Source: Hemileia vastatrix (taxonomy: Eukaryota; Basidiomycota; Pucciniomycetes; Pucciniales; Zaghouaniaceae). Taken from it: 64,000 nt of DNA. The position numbers were made by a program, and so were the translations under genes. Of this stretch, positions 6,601 to 56,582 are shown in pieces; positions within the stretch are counted from its first letter, which is position 1, and every line of letters begins with the position of its first letter. Below the pieces are notes generated by a model that was not told the DNA's origin, searched no databases, and saw only the letters and a list, made by a program, of their open reading frames with translations. Where the stretch lies: the NCBI GenBank assembly GCA_030280995.1, contig JASXTE010000005.1, positions 20,850,501-20,914,500 on the forward strand, given 5' to 3'.

Positions 6601-6817
6601 GGGAGCCATTGTGGCTGCAACAGACAACCCTTCAGACAAAAGGAGTAGACATGTTGAACATGATTTTTATTTTGTGAATGAACAGGTTTATCGCAAAGAA
6701 ATAGTCATTGATTGGGTGGCATCGAAAGATCAAGTAGCTGACCTTCTGACAAAAAACCTTGGACCTATTCACCACAGAAAATTTGGGGGGGTATTGCTAG
6801 CAATACCCCTCATTTAA
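3657..6817 (+). pseudogene. Ty1/copia Pol polyprotein relic (PR-INT-RT-RNaseH)
   Basis: A Pol region in copia order, cut into several frames. Near 3770-3800 the protease site appears as ETRATHHVTGD where copia proteins have DSGATHH, so the catalytic Asp is lost. At 4255-4390 there is a GAG-pre-integrase HHCC finger (DWHRRLGH...CDTC). The integrase core starts near 4437 (VIVSDLVGP) and breaks at 4605. Its continuation carries HHEQNGMAE near 4735 and a TGA at about 4806. Reverse transcriptase runs from about 5350 (VWDLVPLPDGK) to 6290 with the active site HVDD at about 5870; there is a TGA where KLWKSLY is expected (5716) and a TAA at 6286. RNase H follows with VYCDATWGG, SELMAM and LLTKNLGPIHHRKF. 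Gag is absent. The element is non-functional and rather old. Confidence 0.9.
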
Positions 6818-7664: not shown

Positions 7665-10093
7665 ATGTCAAATCTCAGATGTGTTGGACAGTTCTCAATA
7701 ACAATCGATCAAATTTATATGAATGTAATTTCAAGATTTCAAAACTCACCGACCCCCACGATTTTACAGCGAGGCCATTCGAATGTTCATATTTTTGGAC
7801 TATTTGAAGAAAGAAAACCAACCCTTGTCGGTAATCTTTCTCAAGTGCAGAGTCAGCACATTGGACCACTATTGGGTGACATTGGCTCTGGATCTCACCA
7901 TTTAAACCAAAGAAGTGCCTTGAATCCTATGAAGCCTTTCTATTTTCATGCTTACTTGGTTCCAGTTTTTGGTAATCAGTATCAACTTTGGGGATGCCTC
8001 TTTTCTTCAAGTACACTAATCAGTCTTGCTAAAGAAGCATTTTCTTCTGCACAAATCGATTTATGTCCAATCCTGAACTACAACTCCACTATCTTTTTTA
8101 ATATCCCGCATGTAATTTTTGAAGGCTCTTTCCAAATATCTCAGAGTACTCAAGATTGGAAAGCTGATCAACTTATCCGAGGAATCAAAACAGTTCTCAA
8201 AACACATCAACTTCAAGCAATAAATTTTATGATTGACAATGAACGAATGTTAAAGGAAAAGTTGGATATCATGTGGAGGCACCAGGACAACCATTGGCTT
8301 AGAACTGGATTTGATGACTATAAAGATCAGTTTCCTAACAATCAATTAATGCCTGAAGGAAACGGGTCAATACTTGCTGATGATATGGGTTTGGGAAAGA
8401 CACTTTCAACTCTTTCTCTTATAAGTGCAACTCAAGGTGAAGCAAGACAATTCCAGGTATCAGAAAATCAAGAAGGTATTAATCGGAGTTCAGCCACACT
8501 GATTATATGCCCCCTGGCAACACTATCAAATTGGATCAATGAAATAAGTGTGCACTTTGAAGATAATGCGCTTCCTTTCAAGGTTCTTTATGGGAAGGAT
8601 TGTCAAAATACTAATGTCAATGAGCTACAGGACACTGCTATTGTTTTAATGACCTATGAAATAGCTAGCCCAACAATGTCAAAAAATCAAAGCCAAAAAA
8701 AGATACCGGTGACTCAAATGCTCTTTTGGTATAGAGTTGTTTTAGATGAAGCTCAGTTAGTGCCCATTTCTATATCTAAAACTTAAAACTTAATTTTTAT
8801 AATCAATTTTTATAAATATTCTTTTAGTTACATTAAAAATCCTTACTCGCAGAGGGCTCAAACAATATTTGACTTGGAATCCCAACACCGACTATGCTTG
8901 ACTGGAACTCCACTTCAGAACAGGCCCACTGACCTTCAAAGTCTCATATTTTTTCTTAGAATCGAAAAGTGGCAAGAAGACTGGTTATGGAAGAATTTCC
9001 TTTTTCCAGGTTTGCAAAAAGGAAAGGCTAATTCTATCAAATCAATCAATCACTTAATGAAAGTCATAAGCCTACGTAGAACAAAGGATGCAATTTTGTC
9101 TCTTCCAAAAAAGATTCAAAGGGGGATATCGGTTCAATTAGCAGATCCATGGAGGTCTAAACTTGATGTGCTTCAAGAAGGATTCACTGAGCGATATGGG
9201 CCCTCCAGAAGCACTGACTTCCCTTGGGACTCATCTGAGTTTCTAAGAGAGCTGATGATTTTAAGAAAATTCTGCAACCATCCAATCTACAAAAATCTGG
9301 ATGAAACTCCAACTTTTGATTTCACCTGGCAGCATTCCGCAAAGATTTGTCATCTTATAGGCCACTTAAAAAACTTTTTGTCTGGTGAAAGGGATATAAA
9401 TTTTCCAAAAGCTGTTATATTCTCCAACTTTGCAGACTTTTTGCAGATGTAAGTGATTCTATAATGAATTGTTTTACAAAATTGTGTTGGATTATTAAAA
9501 ACAATTTTCTAATATTTCAAAATAGAATAAAAATGGCTTTAGATGACCACAATATTAGGTATACCCAGCTTACGGGTGAACTCAGCCGGACAAAGCGAGA
9601 CAAAAATATGCATGAATTCCATTTTAATAAAAATTGCCAAGTTTTGGTTGGAATGATTCAGGCTGCAGGAGTGGGTATAGATCTCAGGTGTGCTCAAAAT
9701 GTATATATAATGGTGAGCTCAATGTCTTTTATTTCATATTAAGAACAAAAATATTAAATTTTTTATATGTTCAATGTTGAAATAGGAGCCAAATTGGAAT
9801 CCAGCAGTTGAGCAACAGGCTGTTGATCGGCTGTATAGAATGGGGCAGCAAAATGAAGTAAATTTTTTGAATTATTTTGTACAAGGAAGTATAGAATTCA
9901 GTATGTATAAGATTCAAAGGAAAAAAATGGAGCTAACAATGTAAGCCAAATTTCATTTCTATAAATTTTAATGATAATAGTAATCATTAAAATTATGTTT
10001 TGGTTTTCAAGGCTAAGTGTCCCAAACAGTGGAAATGAGGAGTATGAGTGTGCAAACCTATTATTAAGGGAGTTTGTCAATCACTCACATTAG
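7665..10093 (+). CDS. SNF2-family helicase/ATPase (Rad16/HLTF-like), five exons
   Basis: Exons 7665-8755, 8828-9448, 9526-9712, 9786-9940 and 10012-10093 join in frame across four short GT-AG introns to give about 711 aa with no stop. SNF2 proteins use ATP to move along DNA and remodel chromatin. Visible motifs: KTHQLQAINFM (Q-like), ADDMGLGKT (Walker A, about residue 235), DEAH (about 361-364, split by intron 1, then YIKNP), LTGTPLQNR (about 387), QAAGVGIDL (about 615) and DRLYRMGQ (about 646). Order and spacing fit the Rad5/Rad16/HLTF/ULS1 branch, but the RING insertion of that branch is missing and the N-terminal 200 residues are unplaced. Its 3' end overlaps the end of the convergent gene to the right by about 17 bp. 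All catalytic motifs look intact. It is probably cargo of a mobile element rather than a housekeeping remodeller. Confidence 0.88.
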
Positions 10094-11196
10094 AGGAAGA
10101 AAGAATTTCAAGGAGAGCAGGTAAATTTATGGGATTTTGAGGATTTAAAAGTCTGAGTTGTTGAGTATTTAGAGATGCAAGATATAAGGGAGAATAACAG
10201 TCATTCGGCAAACCCCGGGGGACATGAGAAGGATTAAGGTTAGGGGATAATGTTGAAACCAAACTGATTCTTTTGTACAAGGCCAAGTCCTTTAGCACAC
10301 TTCCAGAGTAGGTTGAATTATCTCGAATATCAAAGTGTTGTTGGTCAAGATATTGTGCAACTTTAGAAAAATCTTCAGACCTCCATTCCATTAAGATACG
10401 TCTTAACAATCCATCATTATCAATTTCGGTGTCTGAACAACACTTGATGTTTGTGAAAAGGTTGTGATAAGTTTCACAATGTGGAAGTTTTTTAAGAAGT
10501 TTAGTTCGGTTAACTGAATTCTAAGAATCTTTGTTATTTGAAATAAAGGTCATAAATAAAAACGGTTTAAAAAAAGGGATTTTCATACTTTTTTTTTATT
10601 CTATATTTATGCTTTCTCACTTTGATTATTTCTTGAGAGCTATGAGAATCCTTCCCAAGTCTTAATCTATCAGCATGACCTAAAAACCAACGGTGAAGAA
10701 CTCCTATTTGATTTGAGAAGCTAATTTGAGTTGAGTCAATTGGATATGCAATCAAATTATTTGTTTTTAAGGCATTGTCCCAGTGTTTAATGAGAATATT
10801 TGCCAAGACCTGGTTCCATTTGTCAAACCAATCTAGGTTCCAAGCGAAAGTTGATCCTGGGAAACCACACATGCGAAGGTGATCAATAAAAGATTCACGG
10901 AAAATTGGTGGAAACTTTTCCGAAACGGCTGAATTTGATTCTGGATGAGGTAGTTCAAAGGCAATGTTGCAAGAATTCATGTTGAATGATGAAAATCTGT
11001 CTAATTGCTCTTCAGTAGGGTTTTGTTTCCATCCATTTGATTCTGGTGACATATCCAAAAGTGAACGACAAAAATTGTGTATAGATCTACAAAAGTGATA
11101 ATTGAATGGAGGCAAAGTCTCATTAAAAATTCTATTAAGTGTTCTTGTGTTTGTGGGCAGGTTTCCATGAGGAAAGTAAGAGCTACTAGGGTTCAT
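10077..11196 (-). CDS. ORF2-like protein paralogous to the Tnp2 partner protein
   Basis: Exons 11196-10621 and 10520-10077 join across a 100-nt intron (donor GTGAGA, acceptor TTCTTAG) into about 339 aa without a stop. The protein is not an enzyme I recognise. It aligns with the protein at 16075-17734 in three places: a WNQV block after an aromatic-rich stretch, an EWRSEDFSKVAQYLDQ block against GWRNPELNDLFKKMDK, and a C-terminal module VPRGLPNDCYSPLYLASL against VPKYLPKNCYSETFLQGL, followed by an I(N/D)L motif. Proteins with this C-terminal module accompany Tnp2 transposases in rust genomes, as I recall the family. It converges on SNF2 and diverges from Tnp2 across about 1.07 kb. Function unknown; DNA binding or an assembly role is inference. 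Confidence 0.75.
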
Positions 11197-12269
11197 AAAT
11201 AATTAGATTAAGAAAGTGTTCAATTAAATTAAACAAAGAGGAAGGATAAATTGTTGAGCTCCAAAACTTTATGATCAAAGTTGATTTAAGGAGAAATATC
11301 ACAAAAATTAAGAATAAGAAATATTTCGACTTTATGGAATTATAATATGCATAAATTATATTTTTATATGCAACTTGAACTCAAAAGGAATGGTATAAAA
11401 TAAAGAGAATGATTATGTGATAAAAGAAGACTCATTTAAGAAACGGATTTTTTTTCTTTTCAAAAAATTCTTCCACAAAAATAATTTGTTAAATGTGAGG
11501 CTATGTTCATTTTTTGATTACCAAAAAATTATTTTTGGTCCAATATGATAGTAATACATATTCTATTGAGTAATTTTTTTCAACCTGAATAAATAGACTA
11601 GAGTGTCACTTCATCACATTTATGTATGAAAAGTTATACAAGGTTTCAGCTTTTATGTAATTCTTTAAGGTTTACACTTTTGTAGCATCTATTATTTGAG
11701 TATTTTTGATTTTTTCTTTATAGAAAATTCTACCTAGTACAGACCAATTTTCAAATTGAAAGAAATATGTTTGTGATTGTTTTTTACAAAATATTAAACT
11801 TATTTTTGGGTTTAACTTTGATTTTTGGGGTAATTTTTTAAAAATTATGTTAAAAATATGGATTACTTTTCTTATAGTCCATAACTAAGAATTTTTATCA
11901 AAATCAAATAATTATAGGGTAGTTAGATATAACTCAGAAGGCATTTGATAGAAAAATAATTAAGATGCTTGTGCGTACAACAGAATTTTTTCTATGATAG
12001 AAAATATTCTGATAAACATGCATGCATTGTTTTACAAATGCAGAGAGTATACAGAATACAAATAAAGTAGACTGCATAACTTTAAATTAATATATAATTT
12101 ATCCGATTAAAAATTAAACATTTAAACTTAAATAATTTCAACACATATTCCATAATATTCTTTTGATAAAAAAATGTAGCTTATATTAGCTAATGCCTTT
12201 CAAAAAAAGGAATACCTTCAATCGGTAACTTTGAATAGCTAACTTATTCCTACAATTATCACAATTACA
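11197..12269. promoter_or_regulatory. Divergent intergenic region between ORF2-like and Tnp2 genes
   Basis: About 1.07 kb of A+T-rich sequence between two divergent starts, so both promoters should lie here. I see no convincing TATA box or repeat that stands out from the base composition, and no additional gene. Confidence 0.4.
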
Positions 12270-15200
12270 ATGCCTCCATTTTTTCATGTATGTCAATGTC
12301 AAGATCTTGGATGTGTCAATAGAAAGTATCAAACTTCTTCTGGGTCCTTTGAAGTTGGTATGGCTTTCAAAAGCTCTAATTCTTATGCAAAACATCAAGA
12401 GGAAAGAAATAGGAAGGCCCAGATGGTTATTTCTTCCAACAATCCACTTAACATTGGAAGTTCCCGCTCCACAGAAACAGTAAGCTGTATATCTATAGTT
12501 CAATGTTAGAATTAAAGTCTTTATGATGTTTCAATGATTTATTACATAGGGGCAGTTGCTATTGGGAGCAGAAGTATCTTCAACAGTCTCTAGAAACTCA
12601 AATCTTGGGGAACGGTATAGCCAAATAATTATGTGGCAGGCAGCAAAGCTTTCTCTGATTGATCATTTGAGCAAAGAAGGTTGTACTCAATTTTTGGATG
12701 AAGAAATTAAGAAGCTCAAACTTCTAGGTGATAGTGGAATACTGGATTCTGATAGCATTGTCCGCCTGGTCCCACGCTCGATAGATACAGTTTTTAGTCG
12801 ATTAAAGCTCAATGAATCATTTTTCACTAAAACATGCTGTCCTAAATGCTTTGCTCTTTATGAGTATAACTCTGAATCTCAACCATCTATACTATGTTGC
12901 AATCAACCGTTTCTTTCATCATCAAAGCGCTATTTAAAAATGTTTGGAGCAGGACAAATTGCAGTTAAATGTGATGAAAGGCTGTATTTGATGGAGGAAC
13001 ATCAAGAACATGTAAAATACTTATCTCTTAAAACATTTCATCACCATTCTTTTATCGACTGGCTTAAGGAAAAGATCAAACTGTTCAAATTTGAGCTTCT
13101 GATTGAGAAGAAAACCCCTGTGGCAGAACGTGTAGAGTGTGATTTGATGAAGGATGTTTGTGATGGTTCAATTTGGAAAAACTTTCCCATAACCACTCCA
13201 GCTCTGGATAGCAATGATGATGAATATACAATAACTTCAGGCAACTTAATGTTTACTTTATATGTCGACTGGTTAAGGCCTGGTGGCAATAGGATTGGAG
13301 GTCATCAGAAGTCTGTAGGCAATATTATGATGGTGTGTATGAACCTACCTCAAGAAGATAGATACAAAATGGAAAATCTTTTTTTGTATTCTATTATACC
13401 CGGACCAACAGAACCCACAAGTGAACAGCTTTATCACCTTCTAAAACCACTGGTTAATGATCTACAAACTCTATGGGATGGTATATTGATTGAAAAGACA
13501 CATCTTTATCCACGAGGCCCGAAATTAAGAGTTGCATTGTTCTCTTTGATAGGTGACATTCCTGCAATACGAAAATTGGCTGGCTTTTTGAGTCACTCTG
13601 CAAAAATGTTCTGCTCTTTCTGTAATATCTCTAAAGATGAAATTAGTGAAAAGAATGTGGGAAATTTTTCATTACGGAATCATGAGGATCATATGTGCTG
13701 GGCAACAAAGTGGAAAAATTCTAAGTCACATTGGGAGCGTGTATCAATTGTTCAAAATCATGGGGTACGATGGAGTGAGCTGAATAACCTTGAATATTGG
13801 CGTCCAACTGAATATTCCTCAATTGATGTTATGCATTCACATATGCTTGGCAACCTAAAAGATCACAGTCTAAGCTATTTTCAAATCCAAAATGCAGCAA
13901 AAGATCTAGAAAGAAAACTGGAAAAGGATAAAAATTGGCATGTAAGAGAAGAAGATGATGATTTCTTTTCTGATACTTCACTGCACAAACATTCGAAAAA
14001 ACGTAGAAGTAGCTTAAGCACCACGAATAATGATGATGATGATACAAGACACACGAGACAGCACAAGCGGCAAAGACGTACGAGTTCAAGACAGTCATCA
14101 AGTCATCATGGACTAGATAATGAAGGATTGGGAACAAATCAATCAAGAAGCCAGAGTAGGTCATCCAGCTCCAAATTTATTCCTCCATATAGCGATGTGG
14201 CCTCAATACAGTCTCACAGCAGTGACAGTAGGAATTTATTGTATAACTTAAGGCAAAGAAGCATTAGCATATCACAGAGTGAAGGATCTCACTCATCAAA
14301 TGAGACAGCTAGAGATGAAGAAAATAAAAGGAAAGGTAAGGAGAAAGAAAATGAAGGTAGTAGTAATCCACGAATCACAGCAGCAGAGCTACAGGTTGTA
14401 TGGAAGATGATTGATCAAGTAAGAAGACCTTCCTGGCTAACACGAGTTCCAAAATCAGTAGGATCTAAAAAGGCAGGATCCCTCAAGGCAGCAGAATGGC
14501 ACATGCTGTATACTCTCTACTTCCCTTTGTCACTTATACCCCTTTGGTTTGAAAAATTTAAAGAATCTGAATCTTCAGCTTCCTCAGCTGATAAACCAAG
14601 AGAATATTATCTTCTCAAGTCACTTGTAACATTATGCTCGATCACCAATTTTTTAACATTAAAAAATATACAGACTAATGAGCTTAAAGATCTAGATCAA
14701 TTTCTGTTAGAGTATCGTGAGTGCCTTGAAGAGGGTTGGAAGAATATTAATGCAAAGCCAAATCTGCATATCACTCAACATTATCCTGAAATGATAAAGC
14801 GTCTTGGTCCACCATCAGGTACAGCTACTTGGTCTGGAGAGCGGGTGAATCATATATTATCTGAAATTCCAAACAATCACCATCCACGTATGTAATGTTT
14901 GTAAGCAATGATTTAAAAACTCAGCTGTGCTAATTTATTAATATTTACCACAGGAGAGATACCGCTAACAATGCTCAAACATTGGTATCGGAAGTCTAGG
15001 GTATTAGATCTTGGTGAAGCTGAAGATAATGATCAATGTGAGACTAAAAAAATCCATATTGATCTCGATAAACAAAACAAATGGATCCATCTAAGTATGG
15101 CATTATTTACTAAATGGGTAAGGGCACTAATGGGAAAAGAAACTTCAAGACGGGCTTTGACACCATCGGAGAAAAGTGGGGATCGGGTAGTTGAAAATGT

Positions 15201-15657
15201 AGCAAGCATATTGATACATGGAAAGAGGTTTACTAGTTACCATCAACACATTGCTAATTCAACAATTGAATTCTACTATGGAAAAGATAGCCAGTTTGGG
15301 CAAATTGATGATCTTTTCAGATCAAAGGAAGAGATTGATCAAATATATTTAATAGTAAGTCCTTTCAAGGAGCTCCGTCCAGAAGAAACATCAAAGGATC
15401 CCTATGAGCTTTTCCCACAAGTGCATTGTCAGTTAGTAAGAGTAGCCAAAGCAACTCAAATTGTGATTAAGAAAGATGCAATAATTGGACATGCAGCTAC
15501 TGTCAAGCACAAAAAAGAAATGTTTGGAATCAAAGACGAGGTTGTCACTGCCATTGGACTGCAGACAGTAGTGAGTGAAAAAATTAATCAAATTTATTTT
15601 CTGTTGACTAACATCTTTGTGTTAATTTGGGATTGGGGAAATTTGTAGGATTGGTGA
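12270..15657 (+). CDS. Tnp2-family (CACTA/Plavaka-type) transposase, four exons
   Basis: Exons 12270-12479, 12550-14887, 14954-15570 and 15649-15657 join in frame to about 1057 aa. Tnp2 proteins (Pfam Transposase_21) cut and paste CACTA-superfamily elements. Residues 1-50 hold CQCQDLGC and Lys/Arg-rich sequence. The RNase H-like core is recognisable by YVDWLRPGGNRIGG (about 305, first Asp candidate), IPGPTEPTSEQLYHLLKPLVNDL, GDIPAIRKLAG (about 404, second Asp candidate) and CSFC (about 425). A disordered Ser/Arg/Asp-rich insertion covers about 520-680. After it come LKAAEWHMLYTLYFP, TATWSGERVNH (about 832, a possible Glu) and IPLTMLKHWYRKS. The last exon is only three codons and is the least certain; reading through would add about 25 residues. 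No internal stop is present, so the gene may be active. It is followed after 420 bp by the co-oriented ORF2. Confidence 0.87.
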
Positions 15658-16074
15658 TATTTGTAAATGGTGAAAGAAATAATTCAATGCTTGATTAAAA
15701 AATGCAATGCATCCAACTTACCTTATCATAAATCAGTGAACAATTACTTTGGTTGCTTTTATTGCGAGAGAACCCATGCTTTCAATGAGTCATTTTTATC
15801 TTAAATGTAAGAATGAAAGAAATAAAATCATGATAATGAGAAATATGATAAAATTTTTACTTAATGAATGATCTTCTTGCTCATTCATCTACTATAAATA
15901 GTTTGACCTTCCAACTTTAGCTGATAGCTATATATTATTCACTTTATTTTTCGACAAGAGAACATACATGTTTACAAGACTATATACATAGTATCTTTTT
16001 TTACTTTAGCTTTGATAGGTATAAATTTTAACAACTGATTATTTTTATTTTATTTTATTTTATTACAGTTCATT
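15658..16074. other. Tnp2-ORF2 spacer
   Basis: A+T-rich spacer between two co-oriented genes of the same presumed element. A run of TTTTATTTTATTTTATTACAG just before the ORF2 start could be a branch/acceptor of a 5'UTR intron. Nothing else is visible. Confidence 0.35.
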
Positions 16075-17734
16075 ATGGATGATAATTTTGAAGGGATGTC
16101 TGTTGACCCAACCGATTCTGATTGTTTTCCGCCTCAACATACTAATACTGGAAATACTCCTCCACCACCCTCTGCTGATCCACCTCCAGATGCATCTCAA
16201 TCTGTACCACCTAATCCCAATCCAGGCCAAGAGTCTCATTCAGAACCGAGAAATTTTAATCCCAATCATCCTTCTGCTTCTGAAAGTGCTAATCAGCAAG
16301 CTGATCAGCTAGGAAGAGATTGGGCTAGTGAAGTATTGAGGGAATTTTTCGGAGACCAATCATCATCTGCTCAGCCTAACCAAGGAGCAAGCACAAGTGG
16401 AGCAGGTAAGTCAAATTTGTAGTGTATTCTTTTATTGAAAAATAACCAATTTAATTAACTTATTTGAATTGTTAGTGAATCCCTCAATCATTATGGGTAT
16501 CAGTGATTACCACAGACTCAATTCAGCAGAGTCTCATGAGCAAGAACGGGGGTTAAGGGCTGTAAGAGGCTTAGTTAGAGGGAATGATGTTCCCAGGAGC
16601 TCGGACAGTCTAAATAGAAATATTTACCACTTTCTGAAGTATTGTCTTGGGGGACCAACACAAATATCAAAATATCCTGCGAGCCCAACACCTTTGGAGA
16701 TTGAAAATTGGAAAGATTGGAGCCAATTCAAACTAAAAACCATTCAAACTGTCCTAACCCAAGTCCAATCTTCTAACCGTGCCAATTCTGCAGCTGATTG
16801 ACAATTTCTGATAACCAATTCTATAGCCTTCTTGCGATCCAAAATTCGACTACCTGAATTTTTTCCAGCACCTGAGCCTCGAGGACTAAAAGGAGGAGCA
16901 CCGATCCCACTTTCTGTCAAAAGAAACTTAGAGTGTGAATTGCAAGAAAAAGGTTTTTGGAAATTCGCGTTTGATTGGACTTGCCGTGATTTTTCAGAAT
17001 CAACTTGGAATCAAGTCATGGGAAGCATAGTATGCGACCACTGTACCAGATGGCTCACCACCTTGAATACAATCGATCAGTCAAAGCTTCAGTTCACTCA
17101 ATGTGTTATTGAGAAATGGGTAGTTAATAAGGGGAAGGAGATGATAAGGTTGTTTGGGCAAGAAGAGGAAAGGGTAGCAAGAGAAAAGATTGAAAAGAGG
17201 GCAAGGGCACAAGTAAAACGTTATCGGACCAAGGTAAGTTTTTTATTTTACTTTGCTTTTTGTTATTATGAAGCTGATTTAGTTGGAATTCAGATTGCTA
17301 GTGCACGCTACAAGTTAGCAAGAGATCTCTGCAGTGATGTGCCAGGTTTTGTTGTGCTTTTTCATGATACTAGGTGCATCTCTGATATCGAGGAAGGCCC
17401 AGCACCAGCCCCAACTGCACCTATCCGAGCTATTCCTGGATGGCGAAATCCTGAACTCAATGATTTGTTTAAAAAAATGGATAAGATGACAAAGGACTTA
17501 GCCCATACACCAGCTCAAAAAAAATCAGCATTAAAAACATATTCACGGTCATCAGAAAGGACAGTTGCACAAAATGGTATATTCAATGTTCCCAAATACC
17601 TCCCCAAGAATTGCTATTCAGAAACATTTTTGCAAGGATTATCTGTGAATGAACGTGAGTCACTTGGGGTTGGAGCTGATATTGATCTGGTAAAGATTTG
17701 GGAATCAATTAATAGAGCATCAACATCATCATAA
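16075..17734 (+). pseudogene. ORF2 partner of the Tnp2 element, one in-frame stop
   Basis: Exons 16075-16405, 16476-17233 and 17294-17734 join in frame to 509 codons, interrupted once by TGA at 16799-16801. The surrounding frame (SNRANSAAD, stop, QFLITNSIAFLRSKIRLPEFF) is clearly continuous. The N-terminus (to about residue 110) is Pro/Ser/Asn-rich and disordered. A WNQV block, a strongly charged helix (EEERVAREKIEKRARAQVKRY), then ASARYKLARDL...DTRCISDIEE...WRNPEL and the C-terminal VPKYLPKNCYSETFLQGL module follow. The DTRCISD...WR pattern matches the protein that sits next to Tnp2 transposases in rusts. The stop differs from an Arg CGA by one C-to-T transition. No intron of plausible size removes it, so this copy is probably inactive unless the stop is recoded or edited. 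Function unknown. Confidence 0.75.
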
Positions 17735-17944
17735 CTTAGGTATAACGGTGATCTTCTGTGTAATATAGCTATCTTATATTGAATTTTATGTATTCTGTTT
17801 TTTTTCAAAGCAGCTTGGTAAATGTTATAAAGTGATATTGAGAGAGAGTAACATTTTATTTAAGAAAAACAAATAATGTATGAGATATAAAAATGTATTT
17901 TCAACAAATTGATGGTCCATACCTCTTTATGTCACATTTATGTA

Positions 17945-19895
17945 TCCATATTAATTTCAATCGAATTTAATGTTGACCAATACATAGTGAATACACGCTA
18001 TGCCACTTATACTTGCCAGGCATTGCTACCATTAAATATGCCAGTATCAAAAATTAATTTCGATCGAAATTAATGAGCATGATAATCATGAATTTCTGGA
18101 GTCAACTGCTTATTTTTATGCATGGTGCCTTGCCAACATTAATTTCAATTGAAATTACTTTTGATACTGGCATATTGCATGGTGTCTATTCCTGGAAAGT
18201 GTAAGTGGCATAGTGTGTATTCATTACGTATTGGTCAACATTAATTTCAATAGAATTTAATATTGACATTTTCATATTGAACCCAAACCAGCAAACGACC
18301 CAAAAAATTCTTCATAAAACTGCTCATTAATTTCGATCGAAATTAGTGAGCACCATATACATATTGAATGGTAGTTATATCTGGTGTGTGTAAGTTGTAA
18401 AGCTTGTGTTCAATGTTTATTGGTCAACATTAATTTTGATTGAAATTAATATTAATGTGTAAATGATATTTACATGCTCAATATGCATTGTAATGTGTTT
18501 ACTTTAGAATAGAGTGCCCTACTTTTCATTTTACATAAAAATGCTTGGTGGCATGTCAAATTCAATTTTTATTAAAATTAATGTTGACATGTTACCATGC
18601 ATAACAGTAAGCAACTGACTGAATAAATTGATGATAATCATGAACCTTAATTTCGATCGAAATTAATGTTGCCAAGTGCAGATTGAAAAAAAGCTATGCC
18701 ACTTACACTAGCCAGGCATATCTACTATTTATTATGTATTGGTCAACATTAATTTTTATAGAAATTAATATGGATATGTAAATTTTATATTTACCCTCAA
18801 CATGTATAGTAAATTTCAATACTTAAAAATACTTGCCGTCCTTTACATGTCATGCAAAAAAGCATTATATCATTTCAACATTAATTTTGATCAAAATTAA
18901 TGTTGGCATGCCATTATGCATTGAAACAACTAACTGACTGAAAAAGTTCATGATCAAAATGCTCATTAATTTTGATCAAAATTAATTTTGACCAATACAT
19001 ATTGAATATAAGTAATCTCTGCTTACTCAGACCAGATATAACTACCATTCAATATGTATATGGTCAGCCTTAATTTCGATCGAAATTAATGGGAAGTTTT
19101 ATGAAGAATCTTCTGGGTTGTTTTCTGGCTTGGGTTCAATATGCAAATGTCAACATTGAATTCAATCGAAATTAATGTTGACCAATACATAATGAATACA
19201 CACTATGCCACTTACACTTTCCAGGCATATATACATGCAATATGCCAGTATCAAAAGTAATTTTGATCGAAATTAATGTTGGCAAGGCACCATGCATAAA
19301 AATAAGCAGTTGACTCCAGAAATTCATGATTATCATGCTCATTAATTTTGATCGAAATTAATTTTTGATACTGGCATATTTAATGGTAGCTATGCCTGGC
19401 AAGTGTAAGTGGCATAGCATGTATTCATTATGTATTAGTCAACATTAATTTCGATTGAAATTAATATGGACATGGACTATGCATAAAATTCCTATAAGTA
19501 TAGGTAAGCTAAGCAGTTAGATAAACTGGTTTGATCAAGTACACCATATAAAAATTGATGTTTTAATGCCTTGGTTAATTTCAATCAAAATTAATTTTAA
19601 GCCATGCATGTTGAATTTTATCTATGTCTGTGTAGTCCATGTGAAATGGCTTGTATTCAATATGCAGGGGTCTATATTAATTTCGATCGAAATTATGAGG
19701 TTCATTGCCTCATAAATTTGATGGTTTCTGTCAGTGTTTCATGCATGGTGCCATGTGATACTTGTTGATTCCTATCAAAATTAATTTCAACACCAATATA
19801 TTGAATACAAACCATGGCACTTACAGTACTTGGTCATAGCTAAAATTCAATATGCTAGTCTCAAAATTAATTTCGATAGAAATTAATCAGGATCC
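17945..19895. repeat. Array of about 20 copies of a 20-bp CpG palindrome within a larger inverted repeat
   Basis: The motif TTAATTTCGATCGAAATTAA or a one- to few-base variant recurs about every 70-140 bp from 17951 to 19885. Intact CGATCG cores lie near 18062, 18336, 18657, 19080 and 19686. Spacers fall into two main families and occur in both orientations. The spacer containing CACTTACACT...CCAGGCAT near 17966-18050 is inverted near 18165-18240, direct near 19183-19255 and inverted again near 19365-19440. A spacer with GATAATCATGAATTTCTGG near 18075 is inverted near 19279-19345. The outer parts (about 17.95-18.44 and 18.97-19.46 kb) thus form an imperfect long inverted repeat, with direct repeats between them. 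No ORF is present. A protein-binding array is the natural guess. Confidence 0.92.
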
Positions 19896-20919
19896 ATGAA
19901 GTTTATCAATAGTGTATGAGTTAAGTTTCAAGTCATATGTTTCATCATTTTCTTGCACCCATTTCTAGGTTATCTCAACAATTTTTTTCAAGTTTTATTA
20001 TATTAATCAAAACTGTGGTAAGTTGTGAAAAATTAGCTAATCCAAATCTCAAATTGAATATTAATATTTTAATAATTTTGAATGTTGCTTAAGGTATTTC
20101 ATTGGGTGATTCATAATAATATTTTATCAACTTAGTAGTCCTATAACTTTTGAAAAGTAACAATTTTGGTATAGTTAGGGACAACAATGCAATATCTTGT
20201 GCAGACTAAGATATATTGCAAAATAAAACTATTCAATTTTTTTTTCCCTTAGTTGTATCCAAGTTTATCAAAGGTTTGGTCACAGTGCCCACACCCTAGC
20301 CTGACACTCCTCCTGTCACTTAAAAAACAAATTCTTATCTTAAATTCTAATGTTACCAATTTTATATTTATAATTCATTTCTTGTTTGATGAGGCATATC
20401 AGTATATATGTGAATCTCGCATTGTCATCTGAAAGTAAATTTAACAAATATTCATAAAGGATTATCCTTTTTTTCATATAATATACTAATTAAGTGTATC
20501 TCAATTGTTTAGGAGTAAATTCTAATTTAAAAAATTTTGTATTTACCCGTGGCAATTTGCATATGGGATATAAATTTGTTATTATTTGTTTTTCACACTA
20601 AAAGTCCCCAAAGAATTACTAGTATTTTCTGTTAGCTACATCAAATTTCGCTTCAATATAAACAGATTGTGATTTAGCATGTTACTCAGTTTACCCCACT
20701 ATGAATAATACATGTTAAAAAAAGCTCAAATAATATAAAATCCCCCTCTTTATGTTTTCTGTTTCTTTCATCCTCACTTTAATTTTAATCTTATTCAATT
20801 TTTTATCCTATTAAATTATCAACTTCAATTTTCTAGAATAGAGTTTCTTATAATTATTCATCATATTACATCATAATTTTTTGATATCGAATACTTTTTT
20901 TTAATATTCATTAATCAAT
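19896..20919. other. A+T-rich intergenic sequence
   Basis: Follows the palindrome array and precedes the unknown six-exon gene. The last 150 bp are pyrimidine-rich and A+T-rich, as expected of a promoter/5'UTR, but no specific motif stands out. No gene seen. Confidence 0.4.
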
Positions 20920-23347
20920 ATGTCTAGTATACAAAATCCTACACCTCCACTTTGTATGTATATCATGTTCCTCTCTCTTAATTTATATATTTCACTTATG
21001 TTCTATATCTTTTTTTTTCAAAAATTTGATTTTCCAGCACCCAAATGTGTTTCATCCCACTCTCTGATTGATACTCGCTTTGAAGCTTTTGAGCTTGCAC
21101 CATGTCTTCCACATGGCATGGCACCTAACCCTCCTGTACTTAGCAATGAGAGGCAGGAAATAACAAGAGTTCAGTATCGCAATTTACTTGAATTGGCTAG
21201 AGATAAAACAGAAGAGCTTGTCAAGATCCTTAACAATAATCCTTCTCCTTCATATTTATCTAACCCTTGTAATGACTTACTCCAATATGTGAAAAGCCTT
21301 GAAAAATGTATGTTCATCACCTTTTTTGTCTCCTTTTAAATTAGTAGATAAGATTATTAATATTTTTTTTCTTCATATATATTTGTAGCTTATGAGGAGG
21401 GTATGATTCCTCCTGATGAAGTCATTGTCATTAGGGATGATGATGAGACAGATGAACCATCAGCTTCAACTCATGCTTCAACTTCTAAGGAAAATCTTGA
21501 AACACCTGTTATCCGCTCCAAGAAAAAGAGATTATCCCAAGGCTCCTCTTTTGTTCGACGTATTAAACCGGCTTCTGCTAATGAATTTTCTGATGTATCA
21601 AATAATAAATCTCAAAAAAAAAGCAAAGGTTTTGATAATGAGTATATTCTTGTTTCCTTTTTTTTTATTGTTATTCTTTTATCTTTAAAATTCAATCATA
21701 TATCTCTTTTATTGCTTACATATTGTACTTTTTATCTTTCTTTTGATATTTTGTACCAGAAACTCACCTGCTGTAGATTGTTCCATCCATAAACACCCTC
21801 TCCCTGATGAAGATGATGAAAAGAGCAATGAAAATAGCGATGATCAACTGTCAGAATATGAAGCTATGCTTGTTCATCAAAAAAAGCAAAGTTTAAAATC
21901 TTCTTCAAGACATGTTGATATGTTTGATAAAGATGATGATTCAAACAGCTCATCACCAAATTCCTTCATTTCTAAGAAGCAATACCCATCACCTCCTAAA
22001 TTACCTACTTTGACCTCTTTGAAAGCTTCTCTACCAATGAAATCAACTCCAATCAAGATATCGAAAAAACCTCTAACTTATTCACCCTCAGTTCTAAAAG
22101 AATCTGATTTGCAGGAGGAATTCTGTAAAATTCATAATTTTTATAAAGGTAGAATCAGCACTGCAAAGGTCCTCAGGTCGTGGTTGGAAATTGTTACTCT
22201 CCTCGAATTACGCTCTTCTACTTCTTCCCAAGAACCCATGTCAAATATTCCAATGTTTACTTTTCATTGGGAAAAATCTTGTGGAGAAGATTGGCTTTCA
22301 AAACTTACTGAGTTATGTAAGTTACCATAATTTTTAGTCTTGACTTTTGTTCTTTTACTTATTTTTTTTTCCTTTTGTAGCAAATATTTTTTTAGAGATT
22401 GATAGCTCACAGCTATGGGTACTCGATAATATTGATTTCAAAAAAATGGAAGATTTATGTGATCCTGATGGTTTAAATACTGAAATTCTTTCCTCAACAA
22501 AGAAAACGGATCACCCTGAATCCAATCTTATCCGAATGCTCATGAGATTAATGATCCCAAGTGACCACTGCCGTTCTTCATGGGTATCTCTTATATCATC
22601 TTCACTTTATCTGACCGCACATGAATTCAGCCAGCTTCCATCACATCAAAACATTAACTCAGATTGTCCATTTGAACGTGGTCTTCAGCTTCTAGCTCAC
22701 CTTTCAAATCTGAAGAGTCCGATTTCTGATGGCTTAGAAGTTGGTCCCACTGCACTTCAAACCCGTGATATATCAATGTCAACTCTTCTTCAAATCAGCA
22801 ATATTATCATTGATATAATTATGTCAATTATCATTCTTAAATCAAAATATTGTGCTGCAACAATATCAAGTGGCAAGACTAGTGAAGCTCAACAATCAAG
22901 TGAGAAAAACGAAAATACTGAACTGACTATAATGAGAGAGAAACAAAAGGCTGCACTAAACAAAATAAATTCTGAATACTCCCACCACCGATATCAATCT
23001 TTCACATTCTATATAATTGATGGTGTCCGTGGTTTATTTCTGAGCTCTCAAGATCATAGATTGGCTTCAGCAGCTGATTGCTTGGAGGTAATATCAGAAG
23101 TTAAGTTTCTTAATTTACATGAAAAAAAAATCATTTGATGGAAGAAATAATTTGGAAAAATTTAAATAACTATATTTTAACATTAATAAAACCTTTTATA
23201 GGCAAGTGTGATCCATTTCCTTTAAAATTTGATACCCCAAGTCCTCCGGGAATTGCTAGGGCTATTTCTGCAGATTTTCTTAATCACTGGAGCTCCATTC
23301 AGCCAGTATCACCTTTTTTTGCTAAACACAGCCTTTCAATAAATTAA
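20920..23347 (+). CDS. Unknown six-exon gene in the Tnp2/Tet cluster
   Basis: Exons 20920-20953, 21038-21307, 21389-21641, 21760-22316, 22381-23087 and 23207-23347 join in frame to about 653 aa with no stop. Five in-phase GT-AG introns make a real gene likely; the last acceptor (CAAG before 23207) is the weakest. I do not recognise the protein. The first 300 residues are acidic and basic by turns, low in complexity and rich in Ser (DDDETDEPSAS, RSKKKRLSQ, DEDDEKSNENSDDQ), probably disordered and nuclear. The second half (LWVLDNIDFKKMEDL onward to DHRLASAADCLE) is predicted by eye to be helical with conserved-looking hydrophobics. It converges on the Tet-like gene. An accessory protein of the element is inference. 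Confidence 0.68.
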
Positions 23348-24146
23348 TATTCCAACATGTAAATAGATAAAGTTCTGTCTATATGATATATCTTGTATAA
23401 TTCAAGTTATTTTCCTTCAAATACGTCAAAAATGTGACCATCTTTGAAATTTATTAAGTAACCTTTGACATGATTTTCTAAATTAATTATTAAAAAAAAT
23501 TATTGTAAGTCCAGCAATAACAAAGATTTTAAAATCTACTTATATGATTTCAAATACTTGTATTAAATTCTTAAATATTTTATTGTTTATATAAAAATAT
23601 GATAACTGCTCTAGTTTTGTTACTTTACCTTTAATATTATATAATCTATTAATTATTACAAATATTTTCGTTGATTGTAACATTTTTAATCAGAAGTAGA
23701 ACAATTTAAATAATTAAATGAGTACATTCTTAAAAAAATACAATTTAATCTATTATTGATTCAAAATTCTTTCTTCAACTCTTTATTATTAACTTTTTTA
23801 TTAATAAGCCTGTTTGACCTAAAATACTATACAGTTAATTTGGTAGCATTAAAAGCACATTTTTATGGCTAATATATTTCAAATTCTTTATTATAGTTTT
23901 TTTTATTTTAGAACCTTTGCTACCAATTTAATAAAAATGACATTTAAAGATTTCACAACTTATATATTTCCTCAAAAGTAAATCAATTTTTCTTATAATA
24001 TTATGAAAAAAAATTATTTTATTTCACAAATAAAAAAAATAGATAATACTATAATTATCAAAACTGAAAATGTTACAGCTACTCCCAGTATTTATCATGT
24101 TTAAATTTGCATTAAGTTGTGTATATACAATATAAATTTTTAATAT
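23348..24146. other. Convergent intergenic sequence
   Basis: 800 bp of strongly A+T-rich sequence between two converging genes. It must hold both 3' ends. No repeat or RNA gene seen. Confidence 0.4.
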
Positions 24147-25355
24147 TTAAATATCTAGATTTTTTAGATTTGTCTTAACATTAGATAAATAATACTTTGC
24201 TGATTCTATTTCTTCCTCTATTAAGTCATCTCTTTTCAAAAAAACTCTCAAAGCACTAATCAAATATTCTAACCTAAATTTTTCTTTTTTAATTTCTAAG
24301 TATTCTGAAATATCAATATCAAAAACATTAAGCTTTTCTATAGCATGAAAAAGTCTAGTGCTGATTTGAATAGAAGAACCTATCCTAGTGAAGCCAGGAA
24401 TTTCATGACATCTTGAGGTGAAATGCCTTAGTTGATTGGCAGGCCATAATGTCACTGTTATTCCATTAGTTGCTTCAAAGTTGATTTTACTTCGAATTTC
24501 GGGAAACATAAGTTCTCCACCTATTTGTCGTGGTTGGGTCTTATCATACTTCATATGAATGGTGTTTTTTTCTGTATCTTTAGGAAAAAATATTCCTAAA
24601 GTATACTCACTTGCATCCTTATCGAGATGAACCTCATTAGAGAACCCATTACCATTCCCTCCAGATGTCCAAGTTAAATTACTAGCAAACGGTACACCCT
24701 TTTCTTCACTAGAAACTTTTGAAAATCCAGGAATACCAAGTTTTGCGCAAAGATTAGTTGCCTCATTGTACTTTACATATGATATTTTTTTAAAAAAATA
24801 TTCAAAGTACATTGCAATCCTCTTCATTCGTTTTTTATATTCATCTGTTTTTACAATATCATCAGTGTATTCATCTGCAAGGAAAAGCATTCAAAAATTC
24901 AGTATTTAAATTAAAAAAAGTGATACTTACGAATATGTAAAGATTTCTTTCTATCTAAAATAAAGCCACCACCAAACATTTTTCCAAAACCACCAGCTCT
25001 TTGATGATAACCATTATTTTTAATTTCATGTTCGCAGTAAGAAAGATCCTTAATGCATCGCACCGTAGCTTCTAACATATCTAGTTCTTTGAGCTCATGA
25101 ATTTCAAAAGTCTGCACAAGAACATTAGGTATTAAGACACCTTTTGGTTTATAAATACTACATCCAGGAAAAAAATTGTAATAATTATTGCAATCTGTCA
25201 TATTATTTGCATAAGATCGTGCATAGAAATGTGGCTTCTTCCCGTTTGTATCCATTCCAAGAGCGTTTACAAGTTTAATTCCAGTAGCAATGTCTTTCGC
25301 CCACCTATTGTTAGAATTCTTCCCTGGCCGTTTTTTTTTTCAAATCGTTACTCAT
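24147..25355 (-). CDS. Tet/JBP-like 2OG-Fe(II) dioxygenase
   Basis: Two exons, 25255-24931 (extendable upstream) and 24874-24147, flank a 56-nt intron (GTAAGT...TTGCAG) and give at least 350 aa. Tet/JBP enzymes oxidise 5-methylpyrimidines in DNA using Fe(II) and 2-oxoglutarate. The double-stranded beta-helix signature is visible: VHLDKDASEYTLGIFFP (HxD iron ligands), QIGGELMFPE, INFEATNGITVTLWPANQLRHFT (distal His) and TRIGSSIQIS (possible 2OG-binding Arg). The layout matches the Tet-like oxygenases multiplied in Puccinia-type fungi. Upstream codons (KNSNNRWAKDIATGIKLVNALG) are in frame and look coding. An ATG at 25355 would add them, but a run of ten A at 25331-25340 puts it out of frame by one base. 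All iron ligands are present, so activity is plausible. It is the only gene here with a predicted DNA-modifying role. Confidence 0.82.
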
Positions 25356-26700
25356 TGATGGTTCAATCCTAAGAGAATTCAATTTTGATTTAAAATAGAA
25401 AAAAATCAAAAAATTAGAAAATAGTAACATAATTTCAATTATCAGTCAATGATACCTTTAACTTTATCATATCTTCAATATTAGAAATACAAAAGTTAGC
25501 ATATCTACATATTAGTAAATTTATATACTTTTTCTTTATTTCAAATATTAAGAAAGCGTTTCAAAGGTATACTTTATTAAATTATACATATAAAGAGTAT
25601 AGCTTTATCCTGTATGCATTCAGCAAGTACAAGATTTGGCTCTACACTTAATATTAATAATATAATGAAAGTATAACTCCAATACACTAGTAATATTAAA
25701 AAATTTACAGAATTATGATATCCACATATATAAAATGAAAAATCTTGCTCTGGTCAATATATTGACTTAGAAAGTTATACTTCAATAAATTATTAATTTT
25801 TAAATTGTAGCATTGTCCTGTATGCTTTCAGCAAGTACGAGACTTTGAAACAACTTAAAAATCAATAAATTAAAGGTAAAGTACAAACAATCTAATTATT
25901 ATTATGAAAAGCAAAACATTATCCTGTATGCTTTCAGCAAGTACGAGATGATGTTTTACTTTTCATATTAATAATATAATGGTTGAGAAAGTATTAAAGA
26001 AATATAGAAAAATGATAAGCAAAACATGAACTTACATGTCTATAAAATCTTCTTCCATTTGTAGCTGATTGATCAAAATTAATTATAAAGTTTATTTTAT
26101 AATCACTGTTTTAAAAAATAGATGTTTAGATAAATAAATTGAACATTTTTGATAAGGAATAAAGAAAAGTAAATTGACAAACAAATAAAAAAACTTTAAT
26201 TTAACTGAAAAAGAATTATTTTATAATGAATCAAAAGGGTACAGTAAAAGATACCATAAAAATAAATTCAGAATTAGAATCATTAGATTAACTTGTCAAA
26301 AGTGTAAAAAAGTGTAACAAACCAAAATGATATGAAATGCAATAGCAAGAAAAATTTGCTTACCGGTAATCAGATAAGGTCAAGAAAATAGTACCAATAA
26401 TTCAAAATGATAAAGCAAAAATATGATTGATAATTTTTGAAAAAGGTAAGTGAGAAAGAGAAAGGAAAAATAAATTGGGTGGCAAACAGATGTATATATC
26501 ATGAATTTTCACTGATCACATTTTCAAAAAAATGCAGCTCTCCAAGTCATATGATAAACTTCATCTAAATTCCAAGAATGATGTTGCCAAGGCACTGTAC
26601 ACAGCATGATCATTTTTTCCTATGCATATACTAATTCCAGCTAGAATTTACTTGGCTGCATGTTGTACAGATGCACATTTGTGGAACACTGAATTTCACA
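25356..26700. promoter_or_regulatory. Upstream region of the Tet-like gene with a thrice-repeated motif
   Basis: A+T-rich and without a recognisable gene. A motif close to CCTGTATGCTTTCAGCAAGT, continued by ACGAGA, occurs three times in the same orientation near 25609, 25815 and 25921. The first copy has two changes. Because it lies in the 250-570 bp upstream of the oxygenase start, it could be a regulatory element, or an exon/intron piece repeated by local duplication. Nothing else is visible. Confidence 0.5.
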
Positions 26701-26728
26701 TCTAAAAAAAATTGACGCCACATAATTC

Positions 26729-27799
26729 TAGCTACCATGTTTCATGTAGCTAAAAAACATACACTCATCACATTTAAATTTACATTGCGCCAAAATTAAT
26801 TCATTTTTGAATTTTTTTAAAGGAAACTTTAATGTGCACCACCTATTTCTAAAATATGAACCTCCGCACCATATTAAATTGGGAGACTTTTAATTATGCA
26901 ATTTTTTTGCCGTGACCTTTTTCCTGATCTTACTTGGTTCAAAATATTGAAACATGGCCAATGTTGATGAAAGAAACATTTGATTTTGTTTCTATGTGTA
27001 ACAATGGAAGGCTGTTTCTTACTGGCTGAAGAGTGTTGTATATTTTATTTGAACAAATTTTTATTTTTTTATGTATTTTATTTAAAAAATTTACTTTTTA
27101 TTGCAGCCAGATTTATACTGGCTGCTTTTTAGAAACCTTAATTTATGACCCAAGCCTTTGAAATTGGCTTGGGTCCCTTACATTGCAATTTAGTACTTCC
27201 AGCCAGGTTTCCCCTGGCTGGAAGTGTCTCTTTCAAGCAATCGAAGTCGCTAAAAGCGACTTCGATTGCTTGCTGTAATGTTTGCCACCCTCCCAGCTAA
27301 TTTACTAGGCTGGGAGGTGGCCAAAGCAGTGTGCAACGCGTGTTGCACAATCGCTACCATATTTCATGCAGCTGATATCAAGTCAGCTGCATGCAGCACA
27401 TGCAGCCTGCATTGCTGCTGCATGCAACGCGCATTTCTGCTGCATGCAATGCGCATTACTTGCAGCAGCGATGCGTGTTGCATGTGCTGCATGCAGTGCA
27501 TTGCACAGCCAGTTTTTTTCTGGCTGTGCAATGCACACAGAGAAACCAAAGTCCCTGCAAGGGACTTTGGTCTCTAAAATGGAAGCGACTTTCCCTACCA
27601 GGTGCAATCTGGTGGGAAAGTGAGAGAAACGTTAGACCGAAGTTGTTTGAAAGTAACTTCGGTCTTAAAAACATTAAAAATCATAAAAAAAAATGAGAAA
27701 TGTAGAAAGAAAAAAAAAATTAAAAATTAAAATGTGAGTATAAGAAAAAAAATAAGTTCTAGTGATACCAAAAATCCAAGCCAATTTCATTTGGCTTGG
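26729..27799. repeat. Consecutive array of about twelve unrelated hairpins
   Basis: Perfect or nearly perfect short-loop inverted repeats follow one another: 26729-26752 (7-bp stem), 27103-27125 (8), 27147-27175 (10), 27195-27225 (13), 27234-27272 (18 bp, AAA loop), 27284-27321 (14 with one bulge), 27331-27348 (7), 27365-27393 (11), 27391-27492 (outer 14 bp with inner stems), 27496-27536 (17 bp, T7 loop), 27545-27571 (12, GCA loop), 27588-27621 (13 with one bulge), 27634-27665 (11) and 27776-27799 (9). Stem sequences differ, though CAGCCAG/CTGGCTG recurs in three and CCAAGCC in two. The block is G+C-richer than its surroundings. The small open frames here are by-products of the symmetry. Confidence 0.93.
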
Positions 27800-29954
27800 T
27801 TATTTAATAATTATTTTTTAATACATTAAATTTAAAATTCAAACACCATAAAATATATGAATTTTTTTTATATGAATATTATAAATTTAATCTACCTCTT
27901 TCTCATAATTATATTTATAATTTTGTTTTTTTAATTTTTGACATTTGAGTTTATTTTTTGGAAATACAAAATTAAATTTTCAACTAAATTTTTTAGTAAG
28001 GTAAAATAAATTATAAATTTGAAATTTTGTAATTGAATAATGAAAAAAAATTTAAATTTATTTAAAAAATATTTTTGTTAGAAGAATACAAATATTTTAA
28101 GGGTAGAAATATGGTGCAAATTGTAAGTAAAAAAAATTATATTTTTTTTTGTGAGGGGTTATTTCTATTTTTTAAAATATTTTTCAAAAACATTCATTAA
28201 ATACTGAATTAAATTACTTTGAAACTCAAATTTTTTGTAAAATAATTAAAAATGAAATAATAATATTGTTGTATTTGATATAAAATTTGAATTGGTAATA
28301 TTAATGTCTCTTTAAGTAAATTTGAAAATCATTTAAAAAGACCATGTTGATAAGTACTTCATTTTTGATATACAATGGTTATATATATATCTTATATATA
28401 TTTCTTGAGTTTTATTTTTATATACATTCAATAAAATTTGTAATATAAAATGCCATTTAATAATTAATTAATGTTCAACTTAGTTATAACAACTTCATAT
28501 TTAATACCAGCCACTAGTATTTACTTTTTAATTTAAAACTCCAATATAATATGAGAGTATCCTTATTTTGTCTGTATATAATGAACAACAATAACAGACC
28601 ATAAATGAGTAAGTAATTAATTACAATAAATAGTTGAAGAATAACCTATAAGAAATGATAAGTTTATCAAAAAGAGTACATTAAAAAAATATACTTTTGA
28701 ATTTTTTTCGATATAATTTGGGTAGTTAAATGAAAATTTAAATTATCAGACATCAAAATGGATAAAATCTAAAAGTAGTGTTTATATAATAAGCCTCATA
28801 TAAAAAAAGGATAAAAAATCTACTATGTAACTAAATTATTAAATATTAAGGTATTATTAAAATTATTGAAAAACTTATTTTACAGTTATAATGAAATCTA
28901 AATGTGAAAATAATGGTGGGATAATAGTAAGACTATGTGGAAACACTTTAATTTATACATACTTTCAACTATGTTCAGATAAAAAAATTGTTAAAATTGT
29001 ATAATAACATCTAGTTAATAGTGATGCAATTTTATTTAGATCAAGAATAAATTTTTCTGAGGAAAAACTAATTAAATTGAGATATGGCCATCTCCTTTCA
29101 AGAGATAGAGTAATAATAAAAATTTAAAAAATTATAATAAGTATTCTTAATCACCATTTTTGAAAAGTCTCTAGTAAAATTCATTATAATATATCATTCA
29201 TTGATTACATTATATGGAGTTTCATCTTGAAGTAGTGATGTGCAGCTTTGAACTTATGTTATGAAAAACAAAAAAGTTAAAAAATATATAGTTATACTAA
29301 TGAAAAAGCCAAAAATAAAAATACTATTATAAATTAAAAAAATAAAACTACATAAATTTTATTCTGCTCTAATGATGGAAGGGTACTATGTATGAATTTC
29401 CACATGTTAAATCCAAACCTGCTTTAAGGCTAGTTTACAGGTAGAGCTATTAAGTTTCCTTAAATTCTAAAAATAACTTATGCATTTTACTAATTATTTT
29501 TTTCTTGTTTTCTTTCCAAAGTTGTTAGAGTTGCTTAATTAATACTGTTATCTTGATTGTAAGATATATAATTTTTTTTGAATACATGATTTATTGTTTC
29601 AAAAATTATATTATAAATTTAAATCATTTATTTCATTTTCTAAAGCTTCATTGTCAAAGACACAACTCCATTTTCTATTACTTAACAAATATATAAAATG
29701 TGATAGTAAAATTTGAGGAATTTTCTTTTTGAGAGGGTCAAACTATATTGTGAAGATTTTTATCTAGAAATTCTTGTACTCTAAAACCAAATAATTTTCT
29801 CCCTTAAGTAAGCCATTTCAAAAATATGAGAATATAAACAAGAATATTAACTTATCTTATTTTTATTTTCTTTACTGAAAGTTTTAGTTCAATCCCTTTT
29901 TTTATATGACATTAGTATAAAAACATAGTTAAATGCTACTATATAATTAATTTT

Positions 29955-29995
<41 letters not shown>

Positions 29996-31704: not shown

Positions 31705-31735
<31 letters not shown>

Positions 31736-32660: not shown

Positions 32661-32665
32661 GATAG
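32661..32665. repeat. Target-site duplication GATAG (left)
   Basis: GATAG directly precedes the left LTR and is repeated exactly at 41419-41423 after the right LTR. This defines one intact Ty3 insertion. Confidence 0.95.
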
Positions 32666-33481: not shown

Positions 33482-33518
33482 CTCCCTTACTCTAAAAAAA
33501 AAAAAAATAATAAAAATG

Positions 33519-39542: not shown

Positions 39543-39545
39543 TTT

Positions 39546-45922: not shown

Positions 45923-46004
45923 AGCGGTATTCTGGTATGATTTTGTCTCGCCATCAGCAATCAGTTATCAAACATTTACATTCATAATTTCTTGATAATT
46001 CAGA

Positions 46005-47243: not shown

Positions 47244-47368
47244 CAGCCATATTAGCAATTCTTGGTGCAGCAAGCCAACAAAAGGGCAAGTTAGGCACAA
47301 CATTTTTGACTGACAGAGACTGACATATCTGTCAGTGCTTGGCAACCAGTCTACAATTGATCCACACC

Positions 47369-53596: not shown

Positions 53597-53599
53597 GTA

Positions 53600-56550: not shown

Positions 56551-56582
56551 CTCCCTCACTCTAAAAAAACAATAAAAAAATG

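Follow-up and report, generated by a model that had tools for sequence, protein, structure and literature searches.

The window analysed here is a 64,000-nucleotide stretch of the Hemileia vastatrix genome (assembly GCA_030280995.1, contig JASXTE010000005.1, positions 20850501-20914500). Genome-wide counts were made over the 747.6-Mb assembly. The window holds a complete EnSpm/CACTA element of 35,670 bp, or 26,912 bp after subtraction of a nested Gypsy retrotransposon and its 5-bp duplication. All six genes of a dense cluster (SNF2, two ORF2-like genes, Tnp2, a gene for a 653-aa protein and a Tet-like oxygenase) lie inside this single element. Its structure and mobility are established by its termini, its target-site duplication (TSD) and collinear copies elsewhere in the genome. 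Very likely it is an autonomous DNA transposon of about 27 kb that carries SNF2 and the Tet-like gene as a putative anti-silencing kit and moved in a recent burst. The features are given below in window positions, and numbers of open copies refer to the window and six further copies.

6767-6769, no strand: left TSD, ATT
6770-42439, no strand: complete EnSpm/CACTA element, defined by termini, TSD and collinear copies
6770-6810, plus strand: left terminal inverted repeat (TIR) CACCACAGAAAATTTGGGGGGGTATTGCTAGCAATACCCCT, with a perfect 22-bp palindrome inside it and 95% identity over 41 bp to the inverted right end
7665-10093, plus strand: SNF2 ATPase gene, 5 exons, 711 aa, open in 7/7 copies
10077-11196, minus strand: ORF2-like gene, 2 exons, 339 aa, open in 6/7 copies
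12270-15657, plus strand: Tnp2 (EnSpm) transposase gene, 4 exons, 1057 aa, open in 5/7 copies
16075-17734, plus strand: ORF2-like gene, 3 exons, open in 4/7 copies
17945-19902, no strand: array of ATTAATTTCGATCGAAATTAAT-like palindromes within a large inverted duplication
20920-23347, plus strand: gene of unknown function, 6 exons, 653 aa, stop-free, open in 5/7 copies
24147-25339, minus strand: Tet-like 2OG-Fe(II) oxygenase gene, 2 exons, 350 aa from an inner Met, open in 7/7 copies
27080-27820, no strand: hairpin array, successive perfect or near-perfect hairpins
32666-41418, minus strand: nested Gypsy LTR retrotransposon, with the TSD GATAG at 32661-32665 and 41419-41423
42399-42439, minus strand: right TIR, from inverted-match comparison with the left end
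42440-42442, no strand: right TSD, ATT

The element is bounded by 41-bp inverted repeats, CACCACAGAAAA...TTTTCTGTGGTG, with CAC..GTG inverted termini, and the copies read have the same ends. The start common to the genome copies is CACCACAGAAAATTTGGGGGGGTATTGC, the inverted copy of which closes at 42439. A copia coding sequence forms the left flank. The limits of 7665-27799 given in a preliminary description of this DNA were thus too narrow. The left end was read in 17 elements. The right end was sought in 16, and five of these lacked it within the sequence retrieved. The remaining 11 were read at both ends, and in every one the same 3 bp stand on either side: ATT in the window, C26, C531 and C128, TAT in C121, ACA in C50, and ATA, ATT, TGT, AAG and TAT in five elements on contig C2. 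Nine of these 11 were 26,900-27,230 bp long; besides the window element, C128 was longer (28,609 bp).

Two earlier TIR scans found no convincing pair. They missed the true end because one started at 6800, inside that end, and the other was limited to CACT ends. A wider inverted-pair scan ranked the true ends top, with a best score of 16/18 that was equalled in 1 of 200 Markov sequences; by scan score alone the match is not strong. The possibility that the pair represents two copia ends was ruled out by the genome copies, which share the same ends. An inverted-repeat element at 47.1-53.6 kb was dropped as the source of the CACTA ends after the wider scan. Separate TIR/TSD pairs bounding Tnp2 and ORF2 alone were found in none of the three window scans. 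When the first 895 bp were compared with the last 1016 bp, any matches outside the TIR and its palindrome were short and weak (best E 0.011). The palindrome array lies in the interior of the element.

Six copies were picked from the SNF2 listing, and in each a stretch beginning 8 kb ahead of the SNF2 start and ending 22 kb past it was examined. Collinearity with the window began at 6763-6770 and held to about 29.5 kb, the limit of the reading, with 98.5-98.7% identity in the main blocks; C128 was collinear up to 28.8 kb and had about 0.8 kb extra near 17.9 kb. Five of the six aligned towards the right end as well. Their left flanks differed from that of the window and at most matched other window repeats. 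Across two alignments of 11.1 and 7.3 kb, five of the copies were 0.10-0.29% apart, C128 differed from these five by 0.44-0.63%, and the window differed from all six by 0.69-1.07%.

Copy number was estimated in several ways. Protein searches in which only the best candidates were scored gave near-identical matches at 119 or more places for the minus-strand ORF2-like gene and at least 63 for SNF2. A 40-base tag from SNF2, with up to 2 mismatches allowed, occurred 1,266 times genome-wide and its reversed control 0 times. The end pattern occurred 1,942 times (reversed control 0), a count of left and right ends together because the right end differs by two bases only. The estimate is about 970 two-ended elements, making up about 26 Mb or 3.5% of the genome. 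Of the exact left ends, 100 were listed on four contigs; at 78 of them an exact SNF2 tag followed on the same strand, 2.4-2.7 kb into the element (chance expectation 0.05), and 20 of the 98 exact SNF2 tags on those contigs had no matching left end. Two of the 22 tag-less left ends were read inward, and both hold an SNF2 that is 96% identical to that of the window; an older subfamily therefore has SNF2 too.

The collinear near-identical copies, the matching TSDs and the SNF2 tag counts show that the gene set transposes together and was amplified recently. That the set moves together had been proposed in the preliminary description, and it is borne out by the gene order repeated in six copies elsewhere, with common ends and with matching 3-bp duplications in those read at both ends. 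The gene neighbours were the same in the six compared; one two-ended copy has unrelated DNA at the place expected for TET. Two other explanations bear on these data. The genes could belong to separate mobile elements, nested or adjacent by chance, as the transposon density of the window and the first TIR scans might suggest; the identical gene order at six other loci and, in copies read at both ends, the single end pair with matching TSDs refute this except for the nested Gypsy, and it is highly improbable. Segmental duplication instead of transposition would suit the large size of the units (27 kb). It can hardly be maintained against the sharp common ends, the 3-bp duplications that are perfect in all 11 elements read at both ends, the more than 1000 dispersed SNF2 tags, and the left flanks, which were not seen to be common among the six copies compared.

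Gene models were built by splicing at GT..AG sites, and domains were taken from Pfam. The longest open frame in 7.0-26.0 kb has 781 codons, against at most 170 across 100 first-order Markov sequences. The uninterrupted five-exon SNF2 and four-exon Tnp2 genes, the stop-free 653-aa gene, the Tet-like oxygenase with HxD...H ligands and both arrays had been described beforehand, and all were recovered. All four SNF2 introns are GT..AG, and intron 1 interrupts the DEAH box, which is joined on splicing. The SNF2 protein matched PF00176 (E=1.2e-56) and PF00271 (E=1.3e-16). Its 3' end overlaps that of the minus-strand ORF2-like gene. In Tnp2, exon 2 matched PF02992 (E=6.6e-14). A protein database search returned six relatives of Tnp2, and D240, D336, C355 and C358 of exon 2 (acidic and C(2)C columns) were invariant in comparison with five relatives. 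The last E of the DDE aligned with one of these five, P0121.

Both ORF2-like genes are present, as had been claimed, and are mutually related (BLASTP E=5e-11), over part of one only. The claim needs qualifying for the plus-strand gene, which has an in-frame TGA at 16799 in the window copy only, of seven; two other copies carry a different stop. An intronic reading of this stop was rejected, since other copies proved open. No Pfam family was matched above its cut-off by the 653-aa protein, the minus-strand ORF2-like protein or the longest ORF of the plus-strand ORF2-like gene. The Tet-like protein matched PF20515 (E=2.3e-23), and HxD and a distal H were seen by reading the sequence. An upstream ATG is in frame (384 aa) in C26, C50 and C531 and out of frame in the other four copies, including the window. 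A protein search with TET gave 0 of 1846 candidates at E<=0.001, and a PDB search gave a single irrelevant match (E 0.49). AlphaFold models of the TET exon (pLDDT 34.9) and of one exon of the 653-aa gene (37.6) were unusable. PF20515 matches were found at 150 or more places in the same genome (150 scored of 10,849 candidates) and in 0 of 14 control genomes. The listed PF20515 places outscore the window Tet, and other Tet families therefore abound in this genome.

Class was assigned from transposase, termini and TSD. The Tnp2-type transposase, the CAC..GTG termini and the 3-bp TSD place the element in EnSpm/CACTA. It does not belong to KDZ (Kyakuja-Dileera-Zisupton), having Tnp2 in place of the KDZ transposase and a 3-bp versus a 7-8 bp TSD. 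The link of Tet to a Tnp2/CACTA-type transposase, described beforehand, together with an SNF2 remodeller, as a different arrangement, is not in itself new, because TET+ EnSpm elements of rust fungi were published in 2025 (Kojima, 2025; PMC12730594). Like the window element, those elements have an EnSpm transposase, CAC..GTG ends, a 3-bp TSD, a TET/JBP gene and rust hosts. A Tet-like oxygenase with HxD..H inside the transposon ends is likewise as in TET+ rust transposons (PU type). The main text of that paper, to which this count is confined, has 0 mentions of SNF2, a gene that the window element has. The apparently new part is the joining of SNF2 with TET in one CACTA element; no published case of this union was seen among the papers listed in searches of mostly open-access literature, taken without figures or supplements.

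Several systems resemble the element in part. In kinetoplastids, JBP2 joins an SNF2 ATPase with a TET/JBP dioxygenase; it is a single fused host protein acting on thymine, whereas the window has two transposon-borne genes. Large plant CACTA elements are not known to carry SNF2 or TET, and the VANC protein of VANDAL transposons is not known to be related to either. A soybean CACTA of 20.5 kb is, like the window element, very large (PMC2613891). VANC is a DNA transposon protein that counters the silencing of its own family and is analogous to the proposed kit; it is described as sequence-specific and is found in plants, unlike the fungal element described here (PMC10398659). The DNA transposons Inton and Enton carry an SNF2 helicase, as does the window element, and the passage on them (PMC3627910, citing Kapitonov et al.) mentions no TET.

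The steps of movement were assigned to the encoded proteins by homology. Tnp2 performs DDE cut-and-paste, SNF2 proteins are DNA-translocating ATPases, and PF20515 proteins are Tet-like Fe(II)/2-oxoglutarate oxygenases. From this we infer that Tnp2, a DDE transposase, probably with help from the ORF2-like partners, would cut at the CAC..GTG ends and insert the element with 3-bp duplications. SNF2 would slide or open the nucleosomes of the element, and Tet would act on its 5-methylcytosine by oxidation. Acting jointly, they may keep the genes and ends of the element usable despite host methylation. The two genes travelled with the element during the recent burst, as the near-identical copies show. 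A more specific version of this reading is tentative. It holds that a two-step epigenetic escape kit of SNF2 remodeller and TET, acting on the element's own chromatin, drove the 27-kb burst to about 1000 copies against a TCG-directed methylation/mutation defence, and that a rust-only SNF2 expansion is largely transposon-borne.

The family relations of SNF2 bear on its role. Its top database match was from P. triticina, with 44% identity at 100% query coverage; among the matches listed (best 120 of 7847), relatives outside the rusts were mostly RAD5B/HLTF-like and other SNF2 proteins. In the SNF2 tree, from which two rust-like rows below 400 aa had been removed beforehand, a branch with support 100/99 separates the window and 34 Puccinia rows from 16 other rows. 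Viral contigs were also scanned with the SNF2 alignment; 80 loci were retained at 24-29% identity and were not used. These relatives leave room for a somewhat doubtful alternative, in which a Rad5/HLTF-related SNF2 serves transposition, repairing or replicating the gaps of excision and insertion, and TET alone handles silencing. RING and HIRAN are the parts that make Rad5/HLTF repair factors, and the Pfam scan of SNF2 matched neither, which counts against this alternative. The SNF2 helicase of Inton and Enton has been given a potential role in transposition (PMC3627910), which would favour the same alternative.

Three of the seven copies (C26, C50 and C338) have every one of the six genes open, with TET counted from the inner Met. 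Raw dN/dS was calculated for the window versus up to four copies (C26, C50, C338 and C128), on small numbers. It was 0.18-0.32 for the 653-aa gene and 0.43-0.64 for the minus-strand ORF2-like gene. Pooled over five genes (the plus-strand ORF2-like gene excluded), window versus C26 gave 0.41, with 31.5 synonymous and 49.5 nonsynonymous changes. That SNF2 and TET were picked up by chance and simply hitchhike, giving the element no advantage, is unlikely. SNF2 is open in every copy, with a dN/dS of 0.23-0.26. TET too is open throughout from the inner Met, with a dN/dS of 0.25-0.50 on few changes. SNF2 is also present in both of the old 96% copies examined, and it was therefore retained over time. 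What speaks for passive carriage is that Tnp2, ORF2 and the 653-aa gene are broken in some copies, that one two-ended copy has no TET at the expected place, and that TET genes seem to have passed passively between transposon families (Kojima, 2025; PMC12730594).

Several results weigh against the proposed anti-silencing kit. For gene content, 10 elements of contig C2 were sampled whose left ends lie on the plus strand and were selected for the SNF2 tag. The Tnp2 site was present in 9 of these 10 elements, and TET sequence lay at the expected place in only 6; at that place, two of the rest had shifted other element sequence and two had no element sequence. One of these last two (C2:16431676) has two ends, a matching TSD and a length of 27,230 bp, with no TET at the expected place, where its DNA matches only repeats from the flank of another copy; it is possibly a TET-less or interrupted copy. 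In both older, 96%-identical copies the part of SNF2 that was read contains a stop, and comparison of the two with each other gave a dN/dS of 1.1. For Tnp2, dN/dS was 0.59-0.99, so that constraint over so short a time is weak or absent.

The mutation pattern belongs with these adverse points. Among seven copies, 239 differences were private to one copy. The window accounts for 114 of these, and for them the direction of change is unsettled. C-to-T or G-to-A changes make up 96 of the 239, and 39 of the 96 fell in TCG, a context that makes up 2.6% of C sites (p 7e-36). From this bias it would follow that the copies are, or were, exposed to a methylation-like, TCG-directed mutator. TCG hypermutation of repeats in Pucciniomycotina is cited in the 2025 study (Kojima, 2025; PMC12730594). 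CpG observed/expected was 0.34-0.56 across the gene stretches of the element and 0.08 in its AT-rich part (27830-32650). The copia flank gave 0.39 and a Tc1-like gene 0.48. Special CpG protection of the TET-bearing element is therefore not evident, given the similar values in copia and the Tc1-like gene and the low value in the AT-rich part.

CpG observed/expected was only 0.03 in two Gypsy ORF regions of the window, at 33900-39551 and 56563-61900, both on the minus strand; the gene stretches of the element lie far above this value. The nested Gypsy retains an open frame of 1883 codons despite near-zero CpG, as if it had evolved that way.

The element is a defined, recently amplified, multi-copy meeting point of host methylation, a demethylase-like enzyme borne by a transposon and a remodeller. 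With many fresh copies, the anti-silencing hypothesis for TET+ transposons becomes testable by comparison of copies within one genome. SNF2 domains were found enriched in wheat rusts in 2016 (PF00176 ratio 2.56, q 5.77e-12; table in PMC5295586), and transposon-borne SNF2 may be an explanation of that enrichment.

The palindrome array spanned 2149-2150 bp between anchors in six of seven copies; in C128 the left anchor was not found. Its core had no second occurrence within the window. The palindromes are possible binding sites for an ORF2-like protein. The hairpin array had a folding z of -22.9 versus 20 shuffles, and its length varied between copies (880-1039 bp between anchors in the 6/7 copies with both anchors found). 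The final LTR bases and the TSD of the nested Gypsy were read by eye. This retrotransposon was missing from five other copies read across the insertion point, and in C338 the 2 kb fetched at that point matched nothing in the window. The Gypsy was inserted later than the element formed.

The rest of the window holds further repeats. A Tc1/mariner-like transposase lies at 43680-44767. An open frame of Gly-Val/Ile repeats at 45999-46529 comes from a 12/24-bp tandem array and has, by eye, a signal-peptide-like start. An element at 47136-53598 has CACTAAGCACCAAGTAAGATATCCC as its outer inverted repeats, with further long inverted repeats inside, and contains an uncharacterised ORF (51404-51817) with no Pfam match. 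The second Gypsy ORF region (56563-61900) lies beyond it.

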